Source: Daucus carota subsp. sativus (taxonomy: Eukaryota; Streptophyta; Magnoliopsida; Apiales; Apiaceae). From it: a DNA stretch of 64,000 bases. Location: the NCBI RefSeq assembly GCF_001625215.2, contig NC_030387.2, positions 41,315,606 through 41,379,605 on the forward strand. The letters run 5' to 3'. The translations under genes were made by a program, and so were the position numbers. Position 1 is the stretch's first letter. Each line of letters starts with the position of its first letter. The notes under the pieces are model-generated. The model was not told the origin of the DNA. It saw only the letters and a list, made by a program, of their open reading frames with translations, and made no database searches. Positions 1 to 53,460 of the stretch are shown piece by piece.

Positions 1-1286
1 AGTTAACTCTTTTATCTTCTGCTTGCTAGGAGTTCCAATGCCTTCCTCAAACACGCGCTCAAGTTTTTGAAGTTGCACTGGTGTTGGAGTCCATCTGTGC
101 CTTGTCGTGATCTTGCTGCCACCATATGTCATTAACGGATCACAGTATAAACCTCCGAGGCCTGCTTCAGAAAAGAGCAAGTATCCAAAATATTTACTCA
201 AATGTGAATCAAAGAATAAAAAAAAAAAAATTACTCTTGGCTCACATGCTATTTTAGCATCAAGTCCTTCTATCTACACATAGAAATCCTAATCCAGCAT
301 TTCATACTTTTGAGCATTAACGCCCTTTTTCTTAATCTCAGTACAAACGCTTTAAACTAATCTTACCTGAGAATATTACAAATAACTCATGCAATATACT
401 TCATTTTGCTAGCAGGAAATACCTAAAAACAAACAGGACAATTAGTTACTTCATGAATGCTGCAAGCCTTTCGCAAGAACTTCTTGTTTCCACTACACCT
501 GTAGTAACTGAAATATCCTGGTTGTCGTGGTTTTCTTTTATTGAAAAATCAAATAGGATCAAAAAATGTTGCATTCTATAATCACTGCTGAGTGCTCAAC
601 TGGACATGAATTCACATCTGAATTATGTGTATCAGGTATAAAACAAAGAGTGATGCTAGGTCCATAGAAACATATACAAAAATATGCAGACAATGACTTA
701 GATTCCATATCATTCTCTCTGTTGCATACAGATCTCAAATATGTACATCAGTTGATGATGCAGAACAGGTTTTAAATCACAAAAATATTCAAAAATACAC
801 ATAATTTTTAATAGAACAGCCGAAAAAATTCACAAGAGAGAGTAAAGTTCATGCATCACAAAAACATAATGATACCATCAAGTTAAGGCCTTTATTCACA
901 AACCCTCAAGAAACACTATCAAATAATTAAGTCCTCATCATCATCCGAAAATCCCACAAACCAATTAATCAAACACTAAAACCCCGAAACAAAAATCGAC
1001 AAGACCGCATAATATGAGCAAGGGTAAGCAAGTGAAGAAGAAAGTGAAAAGCATAGGTACCAGCAGTAAGATCCTGTTGAGCAGAAAAAAACCTATGCAT
1101 CTCAGCAAGCTGCTGAGACAGAGTAGCATAAGCAGAGATCTGCTTCCTCAAAACTTCAATCTGCTCATCTGTCATGACCTTCATGCACAACCCATCAACA
1201 TCACCATCAGTATTATAAAGTATATCATTATTATTTTCACTGTGGTTTTGGTAGTGCTGTGCTTCTTGGTTGGTGTTGACTTCCAT
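1..1286 (-). CDS. WOX13: WOX13-type homeobox transcription factor, N-terminal part (cut by window start)
   Basis: Two exons are visible: 1286-1061 and 161-1 (intron 1060-162, GT-AG, phase 1); the rest lies outside the window. The exon 1 end reads [12 protein letters not shown] followed by QQDLTAG, the conserved leader of the WOX13 clade. Exon 2 gives GLYCDPLM, then the homeodomain start [13 protein letters not shown] and [14 protein letters not shown]13-clade proteins are nuclear DNA-binding factors acting in organ development and cell reprogramming. An in-frame ATG lies further up at 1355, but a TATA-like box at 1379-1386 would place the transcript start near 1350. I therefore prefer ATG 1286, which also gives a leader as long as that of Arabidopsis WOX13; 1340 remains possible. 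Family assignment is firm; the start is not. Confidence 0.88.
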
Positions 1287-1378
1287 TGACCTTGTGATCA
1301 GCTCTAGCTCTTCCTCCGTGACTAAATAATCTTTAATCATAACGATGCATAACACCTTGTGGATTCTGAGAGAATGAG

Positions 1379-1386
1379 TTTATATA
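1379..1386 (-). promoter_or_regulatory. TATA-like box of the WOX13-type gene
   Basis: On the minus strand the sequence reads CTATATAAACTC. It sits about 30 bases before the expected transcript start and about 95 bases before the preferred ATG at 1286. It argues against the upstream ATG at 1355 being used. Confidence 0.5.
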
Positions 1387-2450
1387 GTTGTAGTCGGGTA
1401 TTGTATATTGGTATAATTCATTTAGCATAAATAAGAAAAAGTCTTGGGTGGATTATATATGGAATGTCCCTACATTCATGCGGGTCGCGCGCTGGAGAAT
1501 GAGCAGACTTTGGTACAAGTGTGGTGCCAACAAATGGACAACATTTTTCCAAGATAAATTAGTTTATATTTTTATTTGGTTAATAATAACTTCAGCATAT
1601 TGGAAGGTTGGGAGTTGAGAATGGACCTCAAGTCAAAGTTATAGAGCTATTCATCATGATGCAAGAGTATTTGGTTTAATTTTTATAGCTTCGACTGCCT
1701 TTATTATGTTAATCTTTTGAGATTTGGTTGTTTGGTAAAGTTTCTTAATTTCAGAATGATATCAATTAGCATCAATTAATATCAATTGAAGATTTTTGAT
1801 GTGGAAAACATATATAAATGAGTTACCTTAATGATAAAATTTTGTACCCTGACAAAAAAAAAATGATAAAATTTTGTACCAAAATTTATTTTTAAAATTG
1901 TAATTTATGATTTAATATTATTTAATAGTTGGGAGATTTAAAATGTTCGTCTAAGTATTTTTGACTTATTGATAACTTATGAGTTATTGAAGATATAATT
2001 ATAATTATAAAAATAAAAGTGATTTATGATTATTTTTTTTGGAGAGAGTGATTTATGATTAATGGGTAATTTTTATCAAAAAATTAAAAATATTACTAAA
2101 AAAATGTCAAACTAACTAGTGCCTTTAATTTTAAGTAAGTTTATGGCTTATTTTTAAGTTTAAATTAGTTTATGACGTATTAAAGAAACAAATATTTTTC
2201 GTTTAAAGTTGGAAACAACTTTAATTCTTGCCCTTGAATTGCCTCTTTTTTGTCAAATAACAAATATAAAAACACTTTATAATATTTATATTCAAAAAAT
2301 CCCTCCCATATCAACAATAAAATTAAAAAAAAGACATGAAAGTGTCGTAATACAAGTTGATATTATATATAAAATCCTCTCATACAAATATAAATCAACC
2401 AAAAATATTATATGTAGCAGAACTTCAATATCCCCTGCGATATCAAAATC
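1387..2450. other. Intergenic AT-rich stretch
   Basis: This covers the upstream region of the WOX13-type gene and AT-rich spacer. I see no coding potential and no repeat ends. The open frame at 2209-2544 is low-complexity and overlaps the start of a tandem repeat, so I do not treat it as a gene. Confidence 0.5.
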
Positions 2451-2602
2451 TTCTAAATACAAAATTAGTCAAATATCGAACATAAATCACTCCATATTGG
2501 GTTCACCAACAGTTCCTCTTATATATGTAAATATTATCATATAACAAAATTTTCTAAATACAAAACTAGTCAAATATCGAACATAAATCACTCCATATTG
2601 GG
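2451..2602. repeat. 101-bp tandem repeat; second copy split by a transposon
   Basis: Copy 1 runs from 2451 to about 2551 (TTCTAAATAC, CACTCCATATTGGG, TTCACCAAC, then CTTATATATGTAAATATT). Copy 2 starts at 2552 and is interrupted after ATATTGGG at 2602. Its remainder (TCACCAAC, CTTATATATGTAAATATT) resumes at 9494. Copy 1 therefore shows what the insertion site looked like before the transposon arrived. Confidence 0.85.
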
Positions 2603-2896
2603 CAGGGGTGTTCATCAAACCGCACCGCAAAATGCGGTTCTTAATTTATGCGGTGTGGTTGCGGGTTAGGATTTTTACAAACCGCGCGGTGCGGTGTGGG
2701 CTGTGGTTTTATATTTATTTAGTGCAGTTTGAACTGCACCGCATATAATATTATAATATAAAATATATTTATTATATTTATATTATGTATTTATATATAT
2801 TTTTAGTTATATAATTTTGTTTACATACTATTTTAGTAATGAGTTAGTTGATATATAAAAGATAACTAGCGTAAAAGCCCGTTCAAGGCACGGGCA

Positions 2897-3012
2897 TGTT
2901 ATATAACTAACATATACTTTCGAGTTTCGAATATCACATTTTACGATTTGGTATGTTGTATAACTAACATATACTTTCGAGTTTCAAATATCAATGCTTT
3001 ACGATTTTGTAT
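2897..3012. repeat. Tandem duplication of about 57 bp inside the Helitron
   Basis: TAACTAACATATACTTTCGA occurs at about 2903 and again at about 2960, each followed by a similar block ending in TTTACGATTT. The two units differ by a few substitutions. They lie beside the Helitron 3' hairpin. Confidence 0.7.
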
Positions 3013-3909
3013 GTGCTTTTTAAAAAAGTTCAGCAGTATCTTGTGTTTGTTTTACAATATGCTCCTTTATTTTATAGTACGTGTGTGTCAAAACGTGCTG
3101 CTAACCATCAAAATACGTCTCGATATAAAGACAAAAACTTTCTTAGGGTTTTTCCAAATTAGAATCTGATATTAAAATGACAGCAAAAACATAATTTTGA
3201 ATGAGGCCACTCATTTTGAGTTATCCGGATTGAGTTTAAACACAAACTCCTTCTATCCGGTGTATGTTCGAGTATAGAATCAGAAGATAGACTCATTCTC
3301 CTTTGAGAATTTTTTTTTTGACCGGTCCATTATGTAAAAATTCAATGTACGAGTTTAACACAAATAAGTTGAAGGAGCCATCCTTATCTTGCGCATTAAG
3401 ATCCAAAACCCTGTGACAGGATATAGTTTAAAAATTAAATCTGAATGAGTTAAATGAGTAGAAGTAAAGATCATATATATGGTGAAAAATAACAATCAAG
3501 GGAGTCTTGCAGGTGCAACTATTCTTCTAATTTGCTTCTTTCATTCGCTCAAAAATTAAGGTGACATGCTTGATGCATATTGAATTATAATAATTATTGT
3601 ATATTTTTATTCACAGAAAGGAGAGTAAAGTTAATTTCATATAGATAGTTAATAAAGTGTTACCAAGACTCTTTCATTGGCTGCTTGTTTCTACTATTGT
3701 GTCTACAAGCGCAGATTCTTTGTTAAAGGATAATTTACTCACCCCATAAAGCTTGTTAATTCTAAACTTTGATAATTGAAAGTGTCAAGTATGTGTACTC
3801 CTCTATATGCATGTTACTATTTACTTATTTTCTGATAGCCACTTGGGATTACTATATATATGGTTTGATGATGATATATACCACAATCGAAAGCAACACC
3901 CACAAAATA

Positions 3910-4128
3910 AACTTGTACCCGAAGCTTATTATGAGAACACCGCAGGATCTAGTTTTTTCAATGACATCCTTTCCTTAAAGCTTATGAGTATCATAATTGA
4001 CAAATCATTGGAATTCGCATATTCTATAATTGTTGAAGCCACTTGCAACTTTAGCCTGGCTAACAAGATTAGTAAAGGAGGTTTGGTTCTGTTTACTACA
4101 CAGAACTAAAAGGATAGGTTAGTGCCTA
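3910..4128 (+). pseudogene. LysM receptor-like kinase (CERK1/LYK-type) fragment, captured and broken
   Basis: The frame reads NKLVPEA, then IDKSLEFAYS, then EATCNFSLANKIS, which match the stretch between transmembrane segment and kinase glycine loop of CERK1-like chitin receptors (known pattern: VDKSVEF, ATDNFSLANKIGQGG). The glycine loop is reached only after a one-base deletion near 4083: beyond it the other frame gives GSVYYTELKG. The fragment stops there and the rest of the kinase domain is absent. It lies on the strand opposite to the Helitron's own orientation and to the other fragments. It cannot make a working kinase. Confidence 0.72.
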
Positions 4129-4514
4129 TGCAATTCAGTTTTAAGAATGCATACTTAACAAAAACACAGATATAATATATAGCATGGCCCATGAGGACTG
4201 GCTAATGAAGTTAAAAAGGTCTTCTTTGTTGGAAACTAAATTTCATGTTAAAATATTAAACTTTTATATGATAAGCTAAACTAATATATGCTAACTAAAG
4301 TTTCAGGTTGGACTTTTGGATCATTTATCTATTGTTATATGTCCTTGCAAATACATGTTCTCATCTAATTGCAAAAGCTTTGATGTCAATGAACACTCAA
4401 ATTCTTATGTTTACCCTACTACACTCTGAATATTTCATGCGTGATCAAAATAGAAAAGCGGAACATACCTGCGTTGTCATGTGTTTGTATCATTGTCTGT
4501 CGAATTTAATATAA

Positions 4515-4612
4515 GATTCACAAATGATGGGCTTCCAGTGGGAGCCAAATACAACAGGCAATTATCCAATGACCATAACTTGCTTCTCTGAGGCTCCTGA
4601 GGTTCTGAACTG
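4515..4612 (-). pseudogene. Unidentified exon-like fragment in the Helitron
   Basis: One minus-strand frame is open for about 31 codons and reads SEPQEPQRSKLWSLDNC followed by LLYLAPTGSPSFVN, a composition that looks like real protein. I do not recognise the family. It is probably another captured piece, given its position between recognisable ones. Confidence 0.35.
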
Positions 4613-5024
4613 CAACATATAGTGGCAATAATATTCAAGAAATGTTATCATAATCAAAAGACATGAAACAATAAGTTATTATTATTTTGTATTCTCATTC
4701 ACTTTCGCTCTACTTTCAACAATTATTATAATTAGATAGCACGTAGTCTTTCACCGCATTTAATTTAGTTTCATCTACTTATGCTTCTGTTGGAACTTAG
4801 AACTGAGTGATGCTTTTAATATAGGCTTGTCTCTAACTACGAATCAAGCTACATTTGACCTTTTGATGGTCGAATATCATCTGTTTGGATTACCCTACTA
4901 TCGAGGACAGAAATCAAAGACCTGGACCATCTTGGAAGTAAAAGGAAAATGAAGAAAGGACAAGTCAAAAGTAAACGCATAAGATAAATTTGCAATAGAG
5001 ATAAATTTAAAAAGAACTATGAAG

Positions 5025-5490
5025 CTAACCATTTTTGCTTTGGATCAGTGAAAACAGAACATTAATGCATCGAAGATGTTTAAGTGGGAGTACTTTGTTG
5101 GCCAAAAGAAGCAAATGCACAAAATAAGCAATGACATAAATAGTATACATTTCTAAAATTGTCAACCTTGCCTCAAATATATGTCGGCATCAGCTTTGAC
5201 ATAGAATTCATAATCATAAAGTGCATAGGCGGCTTTAAAGAAGGACAACCTGATATAAATGCACAAGTTTGTATGAGTTTCGAATTATGAATTCTCACCG
5301 ACATGAAATTAATGTAAGGACTAATTTATATGGGAGCTTACTATACTCATCTTTGATATCCAAGAGCATGAATTCATTAAATTTTGCCACCTCCCTCACA
5401 TGTTCTGACACATTTGCTTTATCTCCTGTTCTACCGATGATAAATATGATGACGAAGCCAGTGGCTTCTTCCAAGCTGCCAAATCCATTT
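5025..5490 (-). pseudogene. GT31 beta-1,3-galactosyltransferase-like fragment, captured
   Basis: In order on the minus strand: LEEATGF, IGRTGDKANV, FMLLDIKDEYSKLPYK (about 5490-5315); [20 protein letters not shown] then IYLR (about 5250-5180); and VFTDPKQKWL (about 5060-5025). These follow the order of plant GT31 proteins (IGRTKD, LLLDIEEEY.KLPYK, FYVKADDDIYLR, TDPKMKWYE). GT31 enzymes work in the Golgi on glycan chains. The DxD metal-site region reads DAD where the family has DDD. The N-terminal anchor, the C-terminal half and a continuous frame are missing, so this is a non-functional captured piece with intron gaps. Confidence 0.72.
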
Positions 5491-6344
5491 ATAGAAGATG
5501 ATCATTAAACATACAATAGTGTAAAAAAGAGTGTGCAGAGGGGAAAAAAATGCTGATTCTTAGTTGCCTTGAGAGAGAGTAAACAGAAAACTAAGCGATA
5601 AAACTCAATATTCTCTGCTTTAATGATCAAATATTTGTGGGACTTATAATGCGCTCGTATTTAATGATCTGATATCACTTAATAATAGAACAAAACACAG
5701 TTCACTAACAAATTATCCATTATATAAAATAAAAAAAAGATGCATATAGATACCAAAATGATATGTGAATTCTGAAAAACAAAAAACTATTAAATAAAAG
5801 TGAGAATTACGAAGTTTGACAAATATGCCTCTTGAATTTTACTAAGTATGATATAAACATAGGGAGCTTCTAGAAGTCAGGGAGATGGTTTATCCTGGAA
5901 GTAGAGATCAAAGAACCCAGAGAGTACAAGTTCATGTTCTGTTGGCTCTTTGCTACTTTGGCTATCATATGCAGTCCATTGTAAGTGTATCTAATGCAAG
6001 AATAAGTTGTTAGTTTTGTCCTTCAATTCTCAAGTCTAAACACTCTAGTCATTAAAACAGATATCATATACCACCTGATAATATGTTCTCATTGTACTTA
6101 ATATAATTCTATTGACTTATATGTTATAGTTGTCCAAAACCAGATTCCAATATAATGGAGATCGATAACCTATGAACATACCTCTTCCGTAGTGGGTTGT
6201 AGATTCTTTTTGAACATAATTGGATTACCAACCACCACACAGCTCCTCTTATTCTACGAAATCCATCACGAGTCTGCTCGGAACCTCCAGTATCCTTCTG
6301 CCATTACTGAGTCAATAACAAACCAACAAAAATCATGTCTTAAT

Positions 6345-7905
6345 TACCAAGCTCTTGCAAGTTCACATCTGGGGCAAGAAAAGAACCCTCTTTCATCTTG
6401 TTTGTATGGATTTGAATGATTTGCAGGCGGCCATTCTCAGCAGGAAGGCTAATCTGTACTTGTACTTCTAAACGCCCAGGTCTGTAACATATAAGTAGTC
6501 TCTGAGCACAAATTTATGCGTACATGAATTGTATGTGCATATATAAGTAATGTTAAGTAGTTAACAGAACCAAATTGTGCAGGGCATGCATCACCTTAAA
6601 AGAGCTTCGTCAAGCAAATCTTTCCTATTCGTCATTCCGATGAGTAGAACATTATTTAGAGCTTCCACACCATCTATCTAAATATAAATTGATTACCAGC
6701 CAGATAGTGTCATTAGTCAACTCTTAGAGCACAGAAATATCAGTTCTGACATGAACTAAAAGATCCTAAACCAACCTTTGTACGAAGCTGGTTGACAATG
6801 CTATCATGAACTCCAGTACCATCTTTAGTGGAACTTCTGGTCTGCAAAAAGGAATAGAATATACATTGCATGTCAGCACAAACATTTTACAAATTAAATT
6901 AATGACATGTATGTATGATTTCAATTTATAACTGAAACAGAGCCGTAGTAAAGGTTTTTGTAGCCCTATGCCCTCAAGTAACAAATGCAGAAGCAAAATT
7001 ATCTGAAGCAAAGTGAAGACCAGAGAACTATAAAATGTGTGTGTGTGTGTGTTGAGAGAGAGAAACTCTGAGTCGTATAAACATAAATAGGAACTCCAGG
7101 TTCACTGAGAAAAGTTCCCTACCTTACAGATGGCATCGATTTCATCATAAATGATAACATGCAGGTCACTTTCATTCCCTACAAGTAAGATAAGAGGATA
7201 TTTACGATCACGAATACAAAGATGTGCTTATAGCCAGAATTCATCATTACCTCATGATCTTTGGTCTTCTTCAGCATCGACAAATAATTCCCTTACATTC
7301 TTTTCTGTTTCTCCAACAAATTTACTCAAGACTTCTGGTCCATTGACAATCTATAATTAATCGCCAAAAGGTTGGACCTGCCATTAGTAGATGATTACAA
7401 AAACTATTTTTTTATTTGGAGTGGCAAATCGAGAAATTTGTTATTTCAGAAATACCATGCCTAATAATGGAACATAAACTAAAGAAACAAGTAAAAATTT
7501 ATTTTGGAAAATGATTATATCTGAAAGCTGCAACCAAGTTGTCTCAACATCTAAGAAATTGAGTAACATGAGGACAAGAAATTTTGCAGTTGAATTCGCA
7601 CCGGCATCTTTGCTTGGTTATATGAATTAGATATTATGTAACAATTAACAAAGACAGAAGGATTATTCTATACTAACCTTGACAACTCTTATTCCATACC
7701 TTTGGGTCCTTTCCATTTAACATCTTCCCAATCTGATGAGCCTTTAGAGTACTGCCAGTACCAGGAGGTCCATAGAGCAGCATTCCTTTGACATGCTTAA
7801 TGCCAAGTCTGACTGTTCTTGCTCGCGTACGGTAGCTTCGTTCACGGTATGGACATAATCATTTCCCTGATACTCTAGCATTTTTTTTTGCCCTGTTGTC
7901 ATAAC
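6345..7905 (-). pseudogene. NSF (vesicle-fusing AAA+ ATPase) fragment, captured and degenerate
   Basis: Exon-like blocks on the minus strand follow plant NSF D1-domain order: [18 protein letters not shown], then [11 protein letters not shown] (about 7815-7700); [19 protein letters not shown] (about 7350-7255); SDLHVIIYDEIDAICK (about 7172-7130); STKDGTGVHDSIVNQL (about 6840-6775); VEALNNVLLIGMTNRKDLL (about 6672-6600); and [12 protein letters not shown] to LAPDVNLQ (about 6483-6345). Introns are retained. The Walker A reads GPPGTGST, losing the catalytic lysine of GKT, and an in-frame TGA follows the block at 7255. The part just upstream (about 7905-7830) may come from the end of the NSF N domain, joined out of frame. 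NSF itself disassembles SNARE complexes; this copy cannot. Confidence 0.8.
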
Positions 7906-9219
7906 CTGCAAGTCATGACACCTAAAGCCAAATTTTGAGATCTGTATATCTGTAGTGATGCTAAAAAATTGATTTTCACAGTAAAAAAAAAACTATGCTT
8001 ATCCTGGAAAGAAATTCCACTTCAGCAGTTCATTAATCCTTGTTTAATTTTATACATACTTCTACATATCATATCTTTCACTCACATCCTCCCTGGAGGG
8101 CTTATATAATTAACTGTTGTATATAAGCTACAGAGAAATATAAAGAATTAAAGAGTATTCAAGAGTCATATATTTTGCCTAGATTTCACACACCATCTAC
8201 AATGGAGAAATTACCTAGTTAACCAGTAAGAATCATGAATAGATTTGGAACAGACCTAAAGATTGAATGATCATACGCTACATATAGACCATCTTGGGCA
8301 GGTTTGGTATAATAAGCAAGCGCAATTTTAATTGCCCAAAATACAGATAAGCAAAGATTTCTAATAAATAATCATTTGATATGGAGATGAAAACTTGCAT
8401 GCCCATGGAGGAAACAACAGAAGCATTTGAAATTATAATTACACACAAAACACATATAAAACTCCAAAACACAAATTTAAATATAATAACTCGACAATTT
8501 CACAAATGCATCACTTTCACTAACAATGGTTGTTAAAATGATAAAACAAACCACACGAGAATTCCTTTTCATTATTCCCTTCCAACTCTCTACTTCAAAT
8601 ATTTTTACATTTCATTCGATTTAACCAAACAAAGCCTAATAGTAATATCACTTGAATAACCTGAATATGAATGAAAATGAGCTCCTTCTTGAAATTTCAT
8701 TCGTTGAAGCATATGAATTTAATTTTTTTTTATCAAATATTAGGATTTCCAGAACAATATTAAATCAAGACATTAACAGAAGCGACTGAGACCCGAAACC
8801 CGAAAGGCATTCCTAATAAACATAGAGAAACACATAAAGATATGCACAAACACTGGAATAAAACAAAGTTTAACAAATGCATATATTAATGTGAGAAATG
8901 AAGTGGTGCAGAGAAGGAAAAGACCTTCGTCGATTGCGCTTAGCAGTTTCTCGGTCTTGCGCTTCTTCTCCTTTCTCTAAGACCCCAACCGAGGAGAAGC
9001 AGCCCAGCACCAAATAAATCGCAGCCAAGTAGAGACAGCTGAGCTAAAGGAAAGAGTTGGCAGAGAATATATACATGGAAAAACTGCTGCATATCAAGAA
9101 GAAAACGAAGAGACAATGGCATTTCAGAAATTACGTGTAAATCGAGGGTATTTATGTCATTTCATGGGTATTTGTTTTGCTCTTTTTGCCCCTAGTCCCC
9201 TTTTAATATATAGAAGTAG
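7906..9219 (-). other. 5' part of the Helitron without a recognised gene
   Basis: The stretch is mostly AT-rich. The block at 8940-9122 is richer in GC, ends at a donor-like site (AAG followed by GTCTTTTCC at about 8925) and could be the captured leader exon of some gene, but I recognise no protein in it. The outer 100 bases are the Helitron 5' end. Confidence 0.3.
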
Positions 9220-9493
9220 ATAAGAAGTTTGGCGTTAAGACAAATCTATTTGATATACTATATTAACTATCGATTTTACATTTTATTAAAACTTTTAGGT
9301 TCATATTTTTAATCCGCACGAATCGCATAGACTGCACCGCACCACACCGCATTTGTGTGGTGCGGTTTATGCGGTTTTTGAGTTGCACGGTGTGATGGCG
9401 GTTTGAAAATTTAATCAAACCGCATATGCGGATTAGTCTGCGGTTTTGAAGAAAAACCGCACCGTCCGCACCGCGAACACCCCTAATATTAGG

Positions 9494-9880
9494 TCACCAA
9501 CTTTTTTTCTTATATATGTAAATATTATCATATAATTTTTTTGTTAGAGGGATAAAAATAAGTACACAATTTTATGAAAAATATATCAAAAATATAAAAG
9601 AAAATCAACAAAAAATCAATCATAATAAATGATGTCGCAAACAATCCAATAATAGTATACGATTATACGAAGTCAAAAACAGAAATAAGACGTGATAAAA
9701 GAATTAGACAAGAGCTTAATTATGAACAAGTAATTATGACTTATAAAAAAATAATTTTATATTCTATTTTTGTTTAATTAATAGTTATAATTATATTAAT
9801 ACATAATTCATCAATTTAATTTTTAAATATATTAAAAATATTGCTGGCAAAAAATATATTAAAAATAAAATCAATATACT
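9494..9880. other. AT-rich spacer after the hAT element
   Basis: The first 45 bases complete the second copy of the 101-bp tandem repeat. The rest is AT-rich and I see nothing in it. Confidence 0.5.
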
Positions 9881-10400
9881 TATATAAAGGAGAAGCGAGG
9901 GGCGTGTAGGTGGCGCCTCTCACATCGATCCGTTCTATTTTTCTAATTTCTGAAATTTTTGGATAAAAAATATCAATAATTGGAGCTACCTTTTTTAGTT
10001 TCAGATATATTATAAGCAAATTCATGAATCTGATTTTATTTTAGATTATTTATGGAATATAGTAGCTTGAAAGTTTTAATCTGATTTTGTTTTTATATAA
10101 CTGAAATTTTTGGATAAAAAATATCAAAAATTAGAACTACCTTTTTTAGTTTCGGATATATTAGAAGCAAGTTTCAGGATCTGATTTTGTTTCAGATTAT
10201 TTATGGAACATAGTAGCTTGAAAGTTTTAATTTGATTTTGTTTCTATATAAAGGAGAAGCGAGGGGCGTGTAGGTGGCGCCTCTCACATCGCTCTGTTCT
10301 ATTTTTCTAATTTTCTGGAATTTTCGCAAGTTTCAGATTATTTATAGAATATAGCAGCTTGAAAGTTTTAATCTGATTTTGTTTCGGATTATTTAATTAT
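9881..10400. repeat. Compound direct repeats with Helitron-5'-end-like headers
   Basis: A header (TATATAAAGGAGAAGCGAGG, then GGCGTGTAGGTGGCGCCTCT) occurs at about 9882 and again at 10245, about 364 bp apart. Between them a unit of about 150 bp (CTGAAATTTTTGGATAAAAA to GAAAGTTTTAAT) occurs at about 9951 and 10101, and a shortened copy follows the second header. Such headers resemble plant Helitron 5' ends beginning TCTATATAAA, so this may be a tandem array of Helitron 5' ends. Confidence 0.7.
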
Positions 10401-47476: not shown

Positions 47477-50400
47477 TTACATGCTACTGCGTGGAGTTGA
47501 CCAAGAAGGTTTCTTCTGCAACCTCCCTCTTAACTGTCTCATTGTTTCATCGACTCTTGCTGAGAACCCTATCTTTGTTTCCTGCTTAGCTTTCGACCGC
47601 TCTCTTCTCCACATGCTTCGGTCCTCCTTGTCTTGTTTGTAGTACTTGATTTCTTGGATTATATGGTGATCCATGGGGTTGAATGCTCGCTGGAATGATA
47701 TGTGAGCTAGGTATGGGATAATGCAGGCAACCGCTACCAGAAGCGTGGTTAGCCAGTACAGTGGTGCAGGAGCAACAGCTTCTTCCAGTACTCTGAAAGC
47801 ATGAGGTGATAACATGAGGCCGTAGAGATAGAGGAATATGTACCAAGTGACGACGCTTCCCCAGACAACGATGTGTTGGATCCAGGTGAAGTGACTCATT
47901 GTAAAGGCGATCTGACAGTTGACGGCCCAGATTATGCAAGTGAACATAGTGGTACCCATGGCAGCCATGTCTGTAGTCTGCCCATCAGAGCGGAAGGCCT
48001 GGTCGTGAAAGATCCCAATGTTTACAAAAAATATAACAAGGGAGGTGTAGAGACCATTTGCCATCCACCCAAGTATCCGAAACCAGTCAAAGAACAAGTT
48101 TTTCGCTCCTTGCTGATACAATGCTGGGAACTGTATACAGACAACTACTTTATGTAAGTGTGCAAACACTGATAACTGAGGGTAAATGCCTAAATGGGAA
48201 ATTCAAACAGGATTGATGGACAGACCTGTAAGCAGACCTCAGAAGAAACATCTTGTTCCAAGACACCTAGTGAAATGACAGGCAATGAAGTCAGAAGAAC
48301 ATTAAATAGCAACATATACCAGTCATCATAGACAGATTGCCCAGAGAAGCCAGTGAAAGCCTCAAAGTAAAACAGTGTAAGCCCAAAGGCAATGTTCTTG
48401 TAGAAGAAATAACATATCTGCAAGCACAAAGTTGAATTTCAATTAAAATGAACAGGTTTATAAGCAATATAAACACTAGCAAGAGGGAGAAATCATGCTG
48501 TGCAGTATGCAGGATGCCCTAATGTATTGATGGCTGGGTGTGCATGCTTAACCAGACCGTTTATACTACCATACTGCCCTGGTAAAACTTTTAAAAACTT
48601 ATAAATATTACCATCTGAGCTATCCTCTTGTAGCACCAGTGCCCATGGACTACCAGAAGTCTCTCCAGAAACCGGAACTGTGCAATCGAAAAATCACTAG
48701 CCATCACAGCCTGTAAAATGCTGAGAATTTTGTTACTTGTAAACAGGACTATGTTTGATGAGCTTTGAGCTCAATGCAAATTTTCATAATCTACCTGTGA
48801 TTGTGAGTGTGATTCAAGATTGTCCAAAACTTATACAAGTTAAAAGCTTACAATCAAATAGATTTATCAATTATCAAATGGACACTTTTTTTTTGAGTGA
48901 CCAGAGTTCGCTAATTTAAAATATACACAAATTTTGGATTTGAACAAATGCATAAGATTCATTTGTTATTTCTTCTCACAGCCTATTACATGCTTAAGGG
49001 TGGAGATGAGTTCAACAGAAAAAAACCAAAAAGCCATTCGTCATTGTTATCTGAACTCGAAAGGCGTCCTGAAAAATTAAATTATCAAATGTATACTTCA
49101 GAAGCAACCTGTTAGAGATACTACGAACCTGCATTCCTTCCACACCGCTGATGCCTACACCAATATCCGCCTCTTGAATCATTCCAACATCATTTGCGCC
49201 ATCGCCAATAGCTAAAGTTGTCTTTCCAGTACCTTCTTTTACTAATCTTGTTACCTGGAGTGGCAATAAAATACATCATAGGTTTAGTAAACCTATTAAA
49301 AAATTTGTAGCACAAAGGGGACAATGAGAACAAGTTTTACAATGCATAAAGTTATTTCACCAGAGCCTTCTGCTTAGGAGAGACACGACAGCATATGACA
49401 GAAGCACAATCAACTGCTAGATCTAAGAAATAACCCTTCATATCATCCTCCAAGGCATAAGCTAATGTTTTGCCATCAATAATCAAGGCAAATGCAGCAT
49501 GAGGGTCCTTTTCAAGCTTTACCATCTCACATGCATCGGTGATTTGCATCAAGATGTCCTCCTTCACTAGCTGATAGATAACAATCAGAAATTAGACCTG
49601 TATTCGAATGAAATACATTTCTCTCATACATCTTCGAGAAATGCATACCTTTTGGGAATCTTGGGCTATAATGTCAACATTTACTGCTATGCATATTTGT
49701 TTCATGCCCTGTCGAAGCAGACTGCAGGCATATCTGCAGCAGGAAAATGTAACTTCATCACACTTACTGGTGTAGTTTAAGTATTACAAACTATGTACGG
49801 ATTACACACAGCCATAAACATACCCTATGTTGATTGCAGTTTCCATCTTATCACCTGTAAGGACCCAGATTTTTAGACCAGCTTGTGCTAGTTTATCAAT
49901 ACACTGAGGCACCTGGAATCGAAACAATGCAACTGAATCAGAAAGGAACCTGATAACAGTAACTGTACCCAATTATTGCCATGCGACGACTCTCTTACCC
50001 CTTTCTGAAGTTTGTCCTCCACTGCAGTTGCACCGATAAGTATTAAATCTCTCTCCATCGCATCCGATAAATTTTTAAGTATCACCTCCCGGTCACCACC
50101 AATAGAAGTCTTTGCTTTAAGAAACTCTTCATTCCAAGCATTGTATTCAGTTTCTTGTAGCTTCTTATAAGCAAGTGCAAGAGTCCGCAACCCAGATTCA
50201 CCATATTCATTCAGATGCTTCATAGTAGCTTCCTCAAACATTCGTCCACTCTTAGATAAACGGTCACAGATGATGCTAAATAATAAAATAAAAAATGAAG
50301 TCACACACTGAATACAGTCTTGAAAAAGGAGATAAACTAAAAAGGCAACATTATCAATGGACTTCAAGCCTTTAATTTTTATTACATTGTATGTCTGCTT

Positions 50401-52561
50401 TGATCATAAAATACGAGCTAAAGAAAAATGTCTATTTGCCAAAGTAACTAAAGCAATGTACATTGTACAATATATAGAGTAGACAACTGTGCATTCCTTA
50501 TAAATCAGATGTAAAGGGTCCAAAGCAGACCTGTCTGCACCTTTGCACAGCAGAAAAATCTGTCCATCTTCATCCCTGATAATCACAGACATTCGCTTTC
50601 TTTTGCTAGTGAAATCCAGCACATTAAGAATTTTAAACTCCCTGAAATTTTGTCAGGAAACAATAATCAGTCAATGCATTTAGTCATACTCCGGAGCCAA
50701 CCTGCATACATTAAAAGTGAACATCTCTTGACCTTTCAACAATTTCGAGAGAAGAAGGAAGCCTTTCACGCACAAATATGCTTGTTTGACTTCTTTTACA
50801 ATACTCAAAACCAAATTCTCTTACTGCAACAAGAAAAGCTCCTTCATCCGGTGACTCTGCTTCGTAGTCAAAACCTCCAGTCTCCACATTTATCTCTGGA
50901 ATTGCAGTGTGACACAAGGCAAGTATTCGGAAAAATAACAAAATCAAATCTGCGTCGGGTTCTGTAGACCAATTCCCATTCATGATACGGCTGTCCTCGA
51001 AATTAAACCCTTTCATTGCAGGATTCTGATTTTTCACACCCTTAGGAGTTCTGATGCTCTCCATCTCAATCTCTGATTGTCCAAAACAGTTCCTCTTGTT
51101 TTTCCAAAATATATCGCCACTTCTTCTACTACTAATATTGCTTGAAAATTCAGGATCCTTCCCATCAATATTCACTTCCATCTGCTTTGCAGCTGCGACT
51201 TCCACATCACTGGTAGACATGCCATACGAAGTCCCAGCAATGGAACACTTAATGAATTCCATCTGGTTGCATGTCAAAGTTCCAGTCTTATCAGAGAGTA
51301 TTGTATCAACCTGGCCTAACTCCTCATTCAAATTTGAGGTCCGTGCTTGAGCAGGAGTTGCTGTGTCCTCATCGAACATCTGTATGTCCCAGTTAATGAA
51401 TTTTGCTTGAATGACCTTCACAATCTCGATTGATATATAAAGCGAGATGGGTATGAGGTATCCATAAAGGATAACAGCAGTTACAAGATGATAAAATCCA
51501 GACAAGCTGGCCTTGTTGGGATCATATAGGCTGCCCCCATCTGGAGGTAAATACCACCAATCTGGCATCTGGTATTCTGTCTTAACAGCAAAACCTACTG
51601 AGCTAATTATTGAAATGAGCAGAAGGAATGAGAACAGGATGTAAATAATTTTGTCCATCTGTTTCTCAATTCTGCTCCTTTTTGAAGGAGATGTTGTAGC
51701 ATTTTGCATGACTTTGCTGTCATGACCGGTGAAAATCACCACTCCGTAGACATAAGCTGTATTCCTAAGCTTTGAGTCTCTTAGGAGGATTTGACTAGGT
51801 TCTAGAGGATAGAGCCGGTGGTCAATATCTAGATTCCCGACAAAGGTATAAAGGTTGGGGTTGGGGTCTTCACATCTAATTGTTCCAGTGAAATCCTTGA
51901 AAGATTCGTCAACATTGAGGGGTGAAGTTACCTCTAGAGCTCGTTTAACCTTTAGGTTTGTCTCTCCATCTAAGTTCATGGTTTCCACATAACAGATTCC
52001 ATCTTCATAACTAGATGACAGAAAAAATAAGTCTGCGGGAAAGAATTGATCCTTTTCTACTTTAACCACGTCTCCAACCTGAATCTTCTCCCATGGTTGA
52101 TAAGAAAATCCCCCATTTTCTTGACGAGTACTGACTTTCCGCATATTAACCTTCCTATCTTGCAGAAACCTACGCCAGTCCTCGACTGCTTCCTTCGTCA
52201 TACTAAGTCCAACAACAAAGGCCAGAGGAGCAATCATGCTAAATGCAGAGAATGGAGTGACAGGTGTGAGTGACAAAATGGCAGCCAGGAGGAAGTAAAC
52301 ATTGGCAACACGACGGAATTGCTCAAAGGCTGCTTTGGGCAAGAAAGTAATGACATTGTACTTTGTGGTTGATATGTCATTTAAAGGGTACTTAAGTGGT
52401 TTTTTCTGGTGGAGATGTGGCTGGTTGCAATATACAATTCTCGAATAGCCGGAATCTTGAAGCTCTTGAGGAGCCTCAGCATCATCAGGAGGAGACCTAA
52501 AGCACCCAAATGTATACAGAGTGCTTCTAAGGAGTTTTCCCTTGTTCCTGGCCTGTGCCAT
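47477..52561 (-). CDS. P4-type ATPase, phospholipid flippase of the ALA4-ALA7 group
   Basis: Ten exons: 52561-50733, 50641-50531, 50275-49999, 49912-49824, 49733-49649, 49570-49361, 49254-49129, 48710-48612, 48417-48226 and 48130-47477, giving 1223 residues, the usual length. The large first exon holds TM1-4, the A-domain loop DGET (198-201), PISL of TM4 (371-374) and the phosphorylated Asp424 in DKTGTLT. Later exons carry the nucleotide-binding Lys in [25 protein letters not shown] and TM5-10. Ending [13 protein letters not shown] and GFSARVDE match the ALA4-7 tail. These pumps move phospholipids to the cytosolic leaflet of plasma or endomembranes together with an ALIS beta subunit, and influence cell expansion. 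A leader intron (about 53092 to 52630) is possible. Confidence 0.94.
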
Positions 52562-53460
52562 CTCTCAGGCTTCAGCCAATAAAGAATAAAAGTACCACCA
52601 CATAAGCACCTTCCAAAAGTACACAAGAACTGTGGCATCAATAACTAAATTACACCCAAGATTCTTGGAAACTTGAAAGAAAATATAAAGACATCAAACA
52701 AACTCTACAAGAGCATAATCTAAAAACAAGTCAACCCAAGAAGAACCAATTAAACTACATTCCCACATAAAAACAATATTATTAAACAAAAAATATTGAA
52801 AATCAGAATACTTAATTGTATATAATTGTGATTACATGGTGATAAGTTGATAAAGCATTTAAACAAAGAAAAACAAGAAACAAGAGCTACAATGATTAGC
52901 TTAAAGTCTAGGACACAAGGTCAACCAAGAACAACTAAAAGAAATGCTTGCAGAAGAAATGAAGAAACTCAACAACTTGAAACCCAGCTCTATAACACAA
53001 ATAGAGAAAACAAAGTAAACTACATTTGAATATAAGAAAAGAAGACAAATATTGAAACATAGTAGCAAATGAGTAGAGAAAAAAAAGGGGTACCTAAAAA
53101 AATGAAGAGGGTATGTAAATCTTGAAGAGAGGCAGAGCAAGATGGAGTGGAGTGGATAATAAAAGAGCAGTTAAAGAGTAGCAGAAGCAGCAGCAGAGCA
53201 GATATTCAAGGAGACAAAAAATGAATGCTAGTTCGTGTGTTTGTCTGATATAAAAAGAGTCTAGTGTAGGAGTGTATGTGTATAAAATGGGTGTGTGTAA
53301 TAAAGAAGAGGGAGAGTAGGGACTAGCGAGACTGGGAGAGAAAAAGAGGAGGGAGAGAGGAGAGGGGAGGGTTTGGGTTTAAGCAAAAGACGGGGGAGTC
53401 TGTTTTCCGTTTTAAGTCTTCTGGGCCCTCTGCTTCTGCTACCTCTGCTGTACGTTAAAC
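52562..53460 (-). promoter_or_regulatory. Flippase leader and promoter
   Basis: Minus-strand reading shows a CT-rich leader (about 53420-53100), a candidate donor AG/GTACCCC near 53092 and a candidate acceptor CCACAG near 52630, suggesting a leader intron. The open frames here have no recognisable protein. Confidence 0.4.

Follow-up and report, generated by a model that had tools for sequence, protein, structure and literature searches.

Results

A Helitron inside a hAT element inside a tandem repeat

The DNA analysed in this study (the window) is a 64,000-nucleotide stretch of the carrot genome, corresponding to positions 41315606-41379605 on the plus strand of contig C7; all coordinates below are window positions unless a contig is named. 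Near the beginning of this stretch, at contig C7:41318208-41325090, lies a nested transposon, consisting of a 6355-bp Helitron, a short hAT-type element that contains it, and a tandem repeat whose second copy is interrupted by both. A preliminary description of this DNA had proposed these three levels at the same positions, and the proposal is borne out by an empty tandem copy, by hAT relatives, and by a free Helitron copy on contig C5. We consider it very probable, indeed close to certain, that a 528-bp non-autonomous hAT element hit tandem copy 2 and made an 8-bp duplication, and that the Helitron sits within this hAT element, on the minus strand, between an A and a T; the same reading takes in the cargo history proposed below, whose individual steps carry their own, lower confidence. 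Relatives were sought in the carrot assembly (441,086,747 bases in 11 contigs). Because the best 40 candidates were scored in each search, out of 263 for the left arm of the hAT element, 313 for its right arm, 247 for the whole Helitron block, and 191 for the Helitron 5' end, the counts from these searches are lower bounds. None of the matches considered here falls on contig C10 or C11.

The tandem repeat comprises an intact first copy of about 101 bp (2440-2540) and, head to tail with it, a second copy that is split in two. The left half of copy 2 (2541-2602) ends with the target duplication ATATTGGG (2595-2602); the other segment (9486-9535) begins with the target duplication ATATTAGG (9486-9493) and continues as the right half of copy 2 (9494-9535). 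The two copies are 95% identical over the 62 nt before the insertion site (3 mismatches) and 90% identical over the 42 nt after it (4 mismatches). When 2603-9493 is left out, copy 2 is collinear with copy 1 across the site, with a single 1-nt gap. Copy 1 therefore serves as a paralogous empty site for the hAT element and fixes the outer boundaries of the nest; because it is intact, it also supports an order in which tandem duplication came before the hAT insertion.

The outer element is a short hAT

The terminal inverted repeats of hAT elements are short and have the form YAGGG. The left arm of the outer element (2603-2865, 263 bp, plus strand) begins with CAGGGGTGTTC at 2603, and the right arm (9221-9485, 265 bp, plus strand) ends with GAACACCCCTA, giving an inverted match to the left end at 9485 in 10 of 11 positions. 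The pattern of C or T followed by AGGGGTGTTC was found at only these two places in the 64 kb, both strands considered. The hAT-like ends and the 8-bp duplication put forward in the preliminary description for 2603-9485 are upheld by this inverted match, by the target duplication (7 of 8 positions alike), and by the collinear empty site. Subtraction of the Helitron leaves 528 bp, the residual length that had been predicted.

Genome searches returned at least 53 matches to the left arm, with the main relatives at 76-83% identity, and at least 40 matches to the right arm. When 16 hAT loci were examined, a pair of ends was recognized at 11, which represent 9 distinct elements of 746-1422 bp; the patterns used gave no end pair at the other 5. 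All 9 distinct elements have a perfect 8-bp target duplication, and all are too short to contain the Helitron. Five relatives aligned in detail carry both arms in the same order and lack the 6-kb insert, with differing middles. One further locus, L050 (C4:30114946), aligned with positions 193-528 of the joined arms at 79% identity over 336 columns, without a gap at the join 263|264 (2865|9221 in the window); it apparently represents the Helitron-free state of the hAT element. These comparisons support the assignment of the outer element as a non-autonomous, miniature inverted-repeat transposable element (MITE)-like member of the hAT family. As a MITE-like hAT it may be akin to the hATpin elements of plants, which are marked by a stable hairpin over the whole element. 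The element would have moved by cut and paste, using hAT transposase made elsewhere.

The inner block is a Helitron with a free copy on C5

The inner block (2866-9220) lies on the minus strand, an orientation that adds to the preliminary description. Its 5' end, TCTACTTCTATATATTAAAAGGGG (9197-9220), starts with TC at 9220, and its 3' end (2866-2895) has a hairpin, GCCCGT/ACGGGC with a 7-nt loop, followed by 7 nt and by CTAG at 2866-2869. Just inside the 3' end is a 57-bp minisatellite of about 2.1 copies (2896-3014, minus strand). The block is flanked by A and T, without a target duplication.

A hairpin followed by CTRRT occurs twice in the 64 kb, as against a mean of 0.45 in 20 first-order Markov simulations. 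Because this pattern recurs in both the window and the simulations, the 3' end by itself is weak evidence, and the hairpin alone was rejected as proof of a Helitron. The proof is instead a second full-length copy together with a sharp 5' edge in the genome. The block search gave at least 64 matches, two of them full length among the best 40 of 247 candidates: the window copy and one at C5:45165677-45172137. The C5 copy spans query positions 1-6355 (numbered from the 5' end of the Helitron; window position = 9221 minus query), with 224 mismatches over 6330 aligned bases (3.5%) and 31 gaps, and has the form A|TC...CTAG|T. Its 1500-base flanks had no match in the window at an E value of 1e-3 and are therefore not hAT arms. 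With the first 200 bases as query, 36 of at least 40 matches (best 40 of 191 candidates) started exactly at base 9220, including those in the window and on C5; with the last 201 bases, 10 of 18 matches ran to the last base, 2866. Both the 6355-bp block, as it had been delimited beforehand by its TC, hairpin, CTAG and A/T flanks, and the expectation that other copies would share its ends are thus confirmed.

Of 14 related loci, 8 showed a 5' end recognizable by pattern, with A before it at 7, and 10 showed a 3' end, with T after it in every case; the end CTTTTACGCTAG was preceded by the hairpin, or by a version differing from it in one or a few bases, at 10 of the 14. Four relatives, L031-L034, are complete sister Helitrons of 6395-6405 bp that are 96-99% identical; they occupy different A|T sites on contigs C8, C1, C9 and C6. 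The longest stop-to-stop frame in the window's block is 111 amino acids, and no Rep/helicase was found in Pfam searches of the three minus-strand frames (X at stops), which gave only AAA and Galactosyl_T, the plus-strand frames being unscanned. The Helitron would have moved by rolling-circle replication, with Rep/helicase made elsewhere.

Several observations weigh against the nesting as described. The two copies of the target duplication agree at 7 positions and not at 8. L050 covers only 193-528 of the joined arms, which takes in just 71 left-arm bases, and no left end was found for it. The preliminary description had suggested a search for a solo 528-bp element; hAT relatives without the Helitron are common, and L050 runs across 2865|9221, but a near-identical solo copy was not found in searches with the separate arms, the closest relatives being about 76-88% identical. 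The 9 complete hAT relatives are at least 746 bp long and have divergent middles. On the Helitron side, 8 of the 18 matches with the 3'-end query break off early, near position 110; at L029 the 5' end follows a G rather than an A, and the 3' end was not found; and at L046 neither Helitron end was recognized by the pattern used.

The Helitron carries fragments of five genes

The cargo of the Helitron derives from five genes, a feature absent from the preliminary description. Nearest to the 5' end is a fragment of a ribosomal protein S21 gene (8561-8970, query 251-660, minus strand), consisting of an exon end and the DNA that follows it, 87% identical to locus L041. The L041 peptide matches Pfam Ribosomal_S21 (1.8e-16), and a tblastn match of 18 residues supports the fragment. 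Next to it is a CAND1-like fragment (8000-8458, query 763-1221, minus strand), by position mostly intron, with identities of 83% and 88% to L042. This gene was named from PDB matches of the exons near L042, which were best to CAND2 (E = 7.2e-22) and then to CAND1 (2.2e-20); in Pfam, a HEAT match below threshold was the sole result. The third fragment (6236-7961, query 1260-2985, minus strand) comprises D1-domain exons, with introns, of NSF, the vesicle-fusing ATPase, and is 86-94% identical to the NSF gene at L038. Its joined exons match vesicle-fusing ATPase in PDB (E = 5.9e-80). In the captured piece the Walker A lysine is replaced (GPPGTGST) and one stretch including an exon is missing; in the L038 gene the Walker A motif is unchanged.

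The remaining two fragments lie toward the 3' end. A galactosyltransferase fragment with introns (4666-5738, query 3483-4555, minus strand) is 74% identical to the gene at L040, with tblastn support; Galactosyl_T was found by Pfam at 6.5e-11 on the joined exons and at 0.00046, below the cut-off, on the raw frame, and PDB gave no meaningful match. A LysM receptor-kinase fragment covering the transmembrane region and the start of the kinase (3657-4336, query 4885-5564) lies on the plus strand, antisense to the Helitron. Its identity to the L039 gene is 77%, and to L048 it is 84% over 171 nt; tblastn with L039 peptides also found it. A PDB search with its peptide matched LysM receptor kinases (E = 2.2e-5), with no Pfam family recognized; the frame of the fragment is broken by stops and a frameshift. 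Because introns are retained in the NSF and galactosyltransferase pieces, capture took place at the DNA level. Since the fragments are decayed, their most likely effect appears to be neutral.

Cargo differs from one relative to another. L031-L034 have the galactosyltransferase piece and the 3' part, without the S21-CAND1-NSF block and without the receptor-kinase stretch, and L030 has the galactosyltransferase and receptor-kinase pieces without NSF. This Helitron family combines fixed ends with mosaics of fragments from host genes. The window and C5 copies lack a stretch, located before query 2982, that L029 and L031 have in common. In the window copy, the matches to NSF and to the backbone overlap by 4 nt at this junction (query 2982-2985), an overlap that would suit switching at short homology without proving it. 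At L043, the Helitron 5' end is joined to a CAND1-like piece, and because of this the CAND1-like piece may predate the block seen in the window and C5 copies. Two further observations were made on the cargo of relatives. L045 (C5:39507000-39514000) has the same Helitron 5' end and otherwise shares only pieces of query 4058-4883, representing another cargo mix. L031 carries a further peptide, for which Pfam gave nothing and which we take to resemble the NOI motif of RIN4-like proteins.

From these comparisons we tentatively propose, as a history for which the chances are somewhat short of even, that genes were captured successively: an old backbone with galactosyltransferase and LysM fragments (74-84% identical to the genes) would later have undergone a 5'-proximal swap for the three-gene, 2.7-kb block, joined through a short overlap and with NSF as the freshest piece (up to 94%). 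In the ancestry of the window and C5 copies, a stretch of an older galactosyltransferase-carrying backbone would thus have given way to the S21, CAND1-like and NSF block, probably through template switching within the element or filler repair while it was replicating, and not by running past the 3' end. This mechanism is favored because both Helitron ends are retained. Counting against it, template switching rests on one junction, whose overlap is 4 nt long, with 3 nt agreeing in the gene. It is unlikely, though still to be reckoned with, that the cargo was instead gained by bypass of the 3' end (read-through) followed by deletion. Read-through capture has been shown for the bat element Helraiser (PMC4778049); here, however, the retained 5' end (query 1-242) comes first, the S21-CAND1-NSF block follows it, and the old backbone starts only at query 2982, which leaves the block close to the 5' end; the Helitron 3' end is common to the relatives.

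The order of insertion

The preliminary description had ordered the events as tandem duplication, hAT insertion, and Helitron insertion. The order of the first two steps is supported by the intact copy 1; for the last, insertion of the Helitron after the hAT element had landed at this site is the simplest reading, on grounds of parsimony. The same nesting could have arisen if the Helitron had entered the hAT element elsewhere and the loaded 6.9-kb element had then moved into the tandem copy. The sequence is compatible with such a route, neither hAT end is damaged, and relatives of the hAT element as long as 1.4 kb have transposed; yet no second Helitron-loaded hAT was found, only the window's copy lying in a hAT among the two full-length block copies (best 40 of 247 candidates), and we regard this order as improbable. 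That a single large Pack-type hAT captured the gene fragments and acquired Helitron-like ends by chance is scarcely conceivable, and was rejected for this block: although hAT ends and a 7-of-8 duplication enclose the entire 6.9 kb, the inner block stands alone on C5 with identical ends and without hAT arms, its relatives have the same ends, and complete hAT relatives lack the block, one of them being uninterrupted at the join. The preliminary description had already judged such an element less likely, and the outcome that it named as contrary to its proposal, namely copies bounded by 2603 and 9485 with the same fragments, was not seen among the best 40 of the 247 block candidates.

Surroundings of the nest and further searches

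The nest is flanked by a homeodomain gene on the minus strand and an RNA polymerase I A49-like gene on the plus strand. The homeodomain gene (1-1340; Pfam Homeodomain, 3.9e-6) is presumably WOX13-like. Its likely start is about 1.3 kb from the nested element, which places the nest in the upstream region of the gene. The A49-like gene starts at about 11231 (Pfam, 1.4e-6). Directly downstream of the nest, region 9881-10385 contains a 69-nt repeat at 97% identity (9881-9949 vs 10245-10313) and a 151-nt tandem pair; the start of these repeats, TATATAAAGGAGAAGCG, is in our estimation similar to the end of a repeat family. Long open frames on the minus strand at 47477-52564 were also noted, and are assumed from their translation to belong to a P4-type ATPase gene.

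No Rfam match at the gathering threshold and no tRNA were found. The exact hAT left end had no occurrence in a collection of genome contigs, nor had the Helitron 3' end and the hAT right end in one of viral contigs; since the two collections hold prokaryotes and viruses, this result is uninformative on the family. Among the papers listed for the letters of the hAT ends, none was by its title a plant-transposon paper (titles only were considered); a search for carrot Helitrons with gene fragments turned up only a fungus paper; and among those listed for nested Helitron and hAT elements, none describes this locus by title, full texts being unread.

Discussion

The locus is a well-documented yet ordinary nest of plant transposons, of the kind that belongs to normal plant genome turnover. 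What gives it value is that an empty site or a free copy is available for every level of the nest, and the boundaries and most of the order are therefore demonstrated rather than guessed. Moreover, a Helitron family with fixed ends, varying cargo and extant source genes could serve to probe the way in which Helitrons take up genes. If the junctions hold family-wide, they would speak for gene capture in plant Helitrons by internal template switching, and not only by 3' read-through.

Non-autonomous Helitrons that capture genes are known from plants, in particular from maize, where they have TC...CTRR ends, a 3' palindrome, insertion between A and T, and captured fragments (PMC2575219, PMC2773423). 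A single 22-Mb region of maize was reported to contain 187 Helitrons that had acquired fragments, and nested transposons and gene-carrying Helitrons are described as abundant in maize (PMC2773423). The carrot Helitron resembles the maize elements in all four of these features. It differs from them in its host, in having five source genes in one element and one fragment in antisense, and in the at least two copies of the exact subtype.

For the outer element, the closest comparison is with the carrot hAT-like MITEs, of which 3637 copies averaging 454 bp have been reported (PMC8227079). Like them, it is short, non-autonomous and of hAT type, and its 528 bp are of the same order. Unlike them, the window copy is split by a Helitron, and it is 12-24% diverged from the relatives found. 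Finally, the inner element shares with the bat Helraiser a 3' hairpin terminator, a CTAG end and gene capture (PMC4778049). For Helraiser, read-through past the 3' end is supported by that study, whereas the newest cargo of the carrot Helitron is 5'-proximal and internal.

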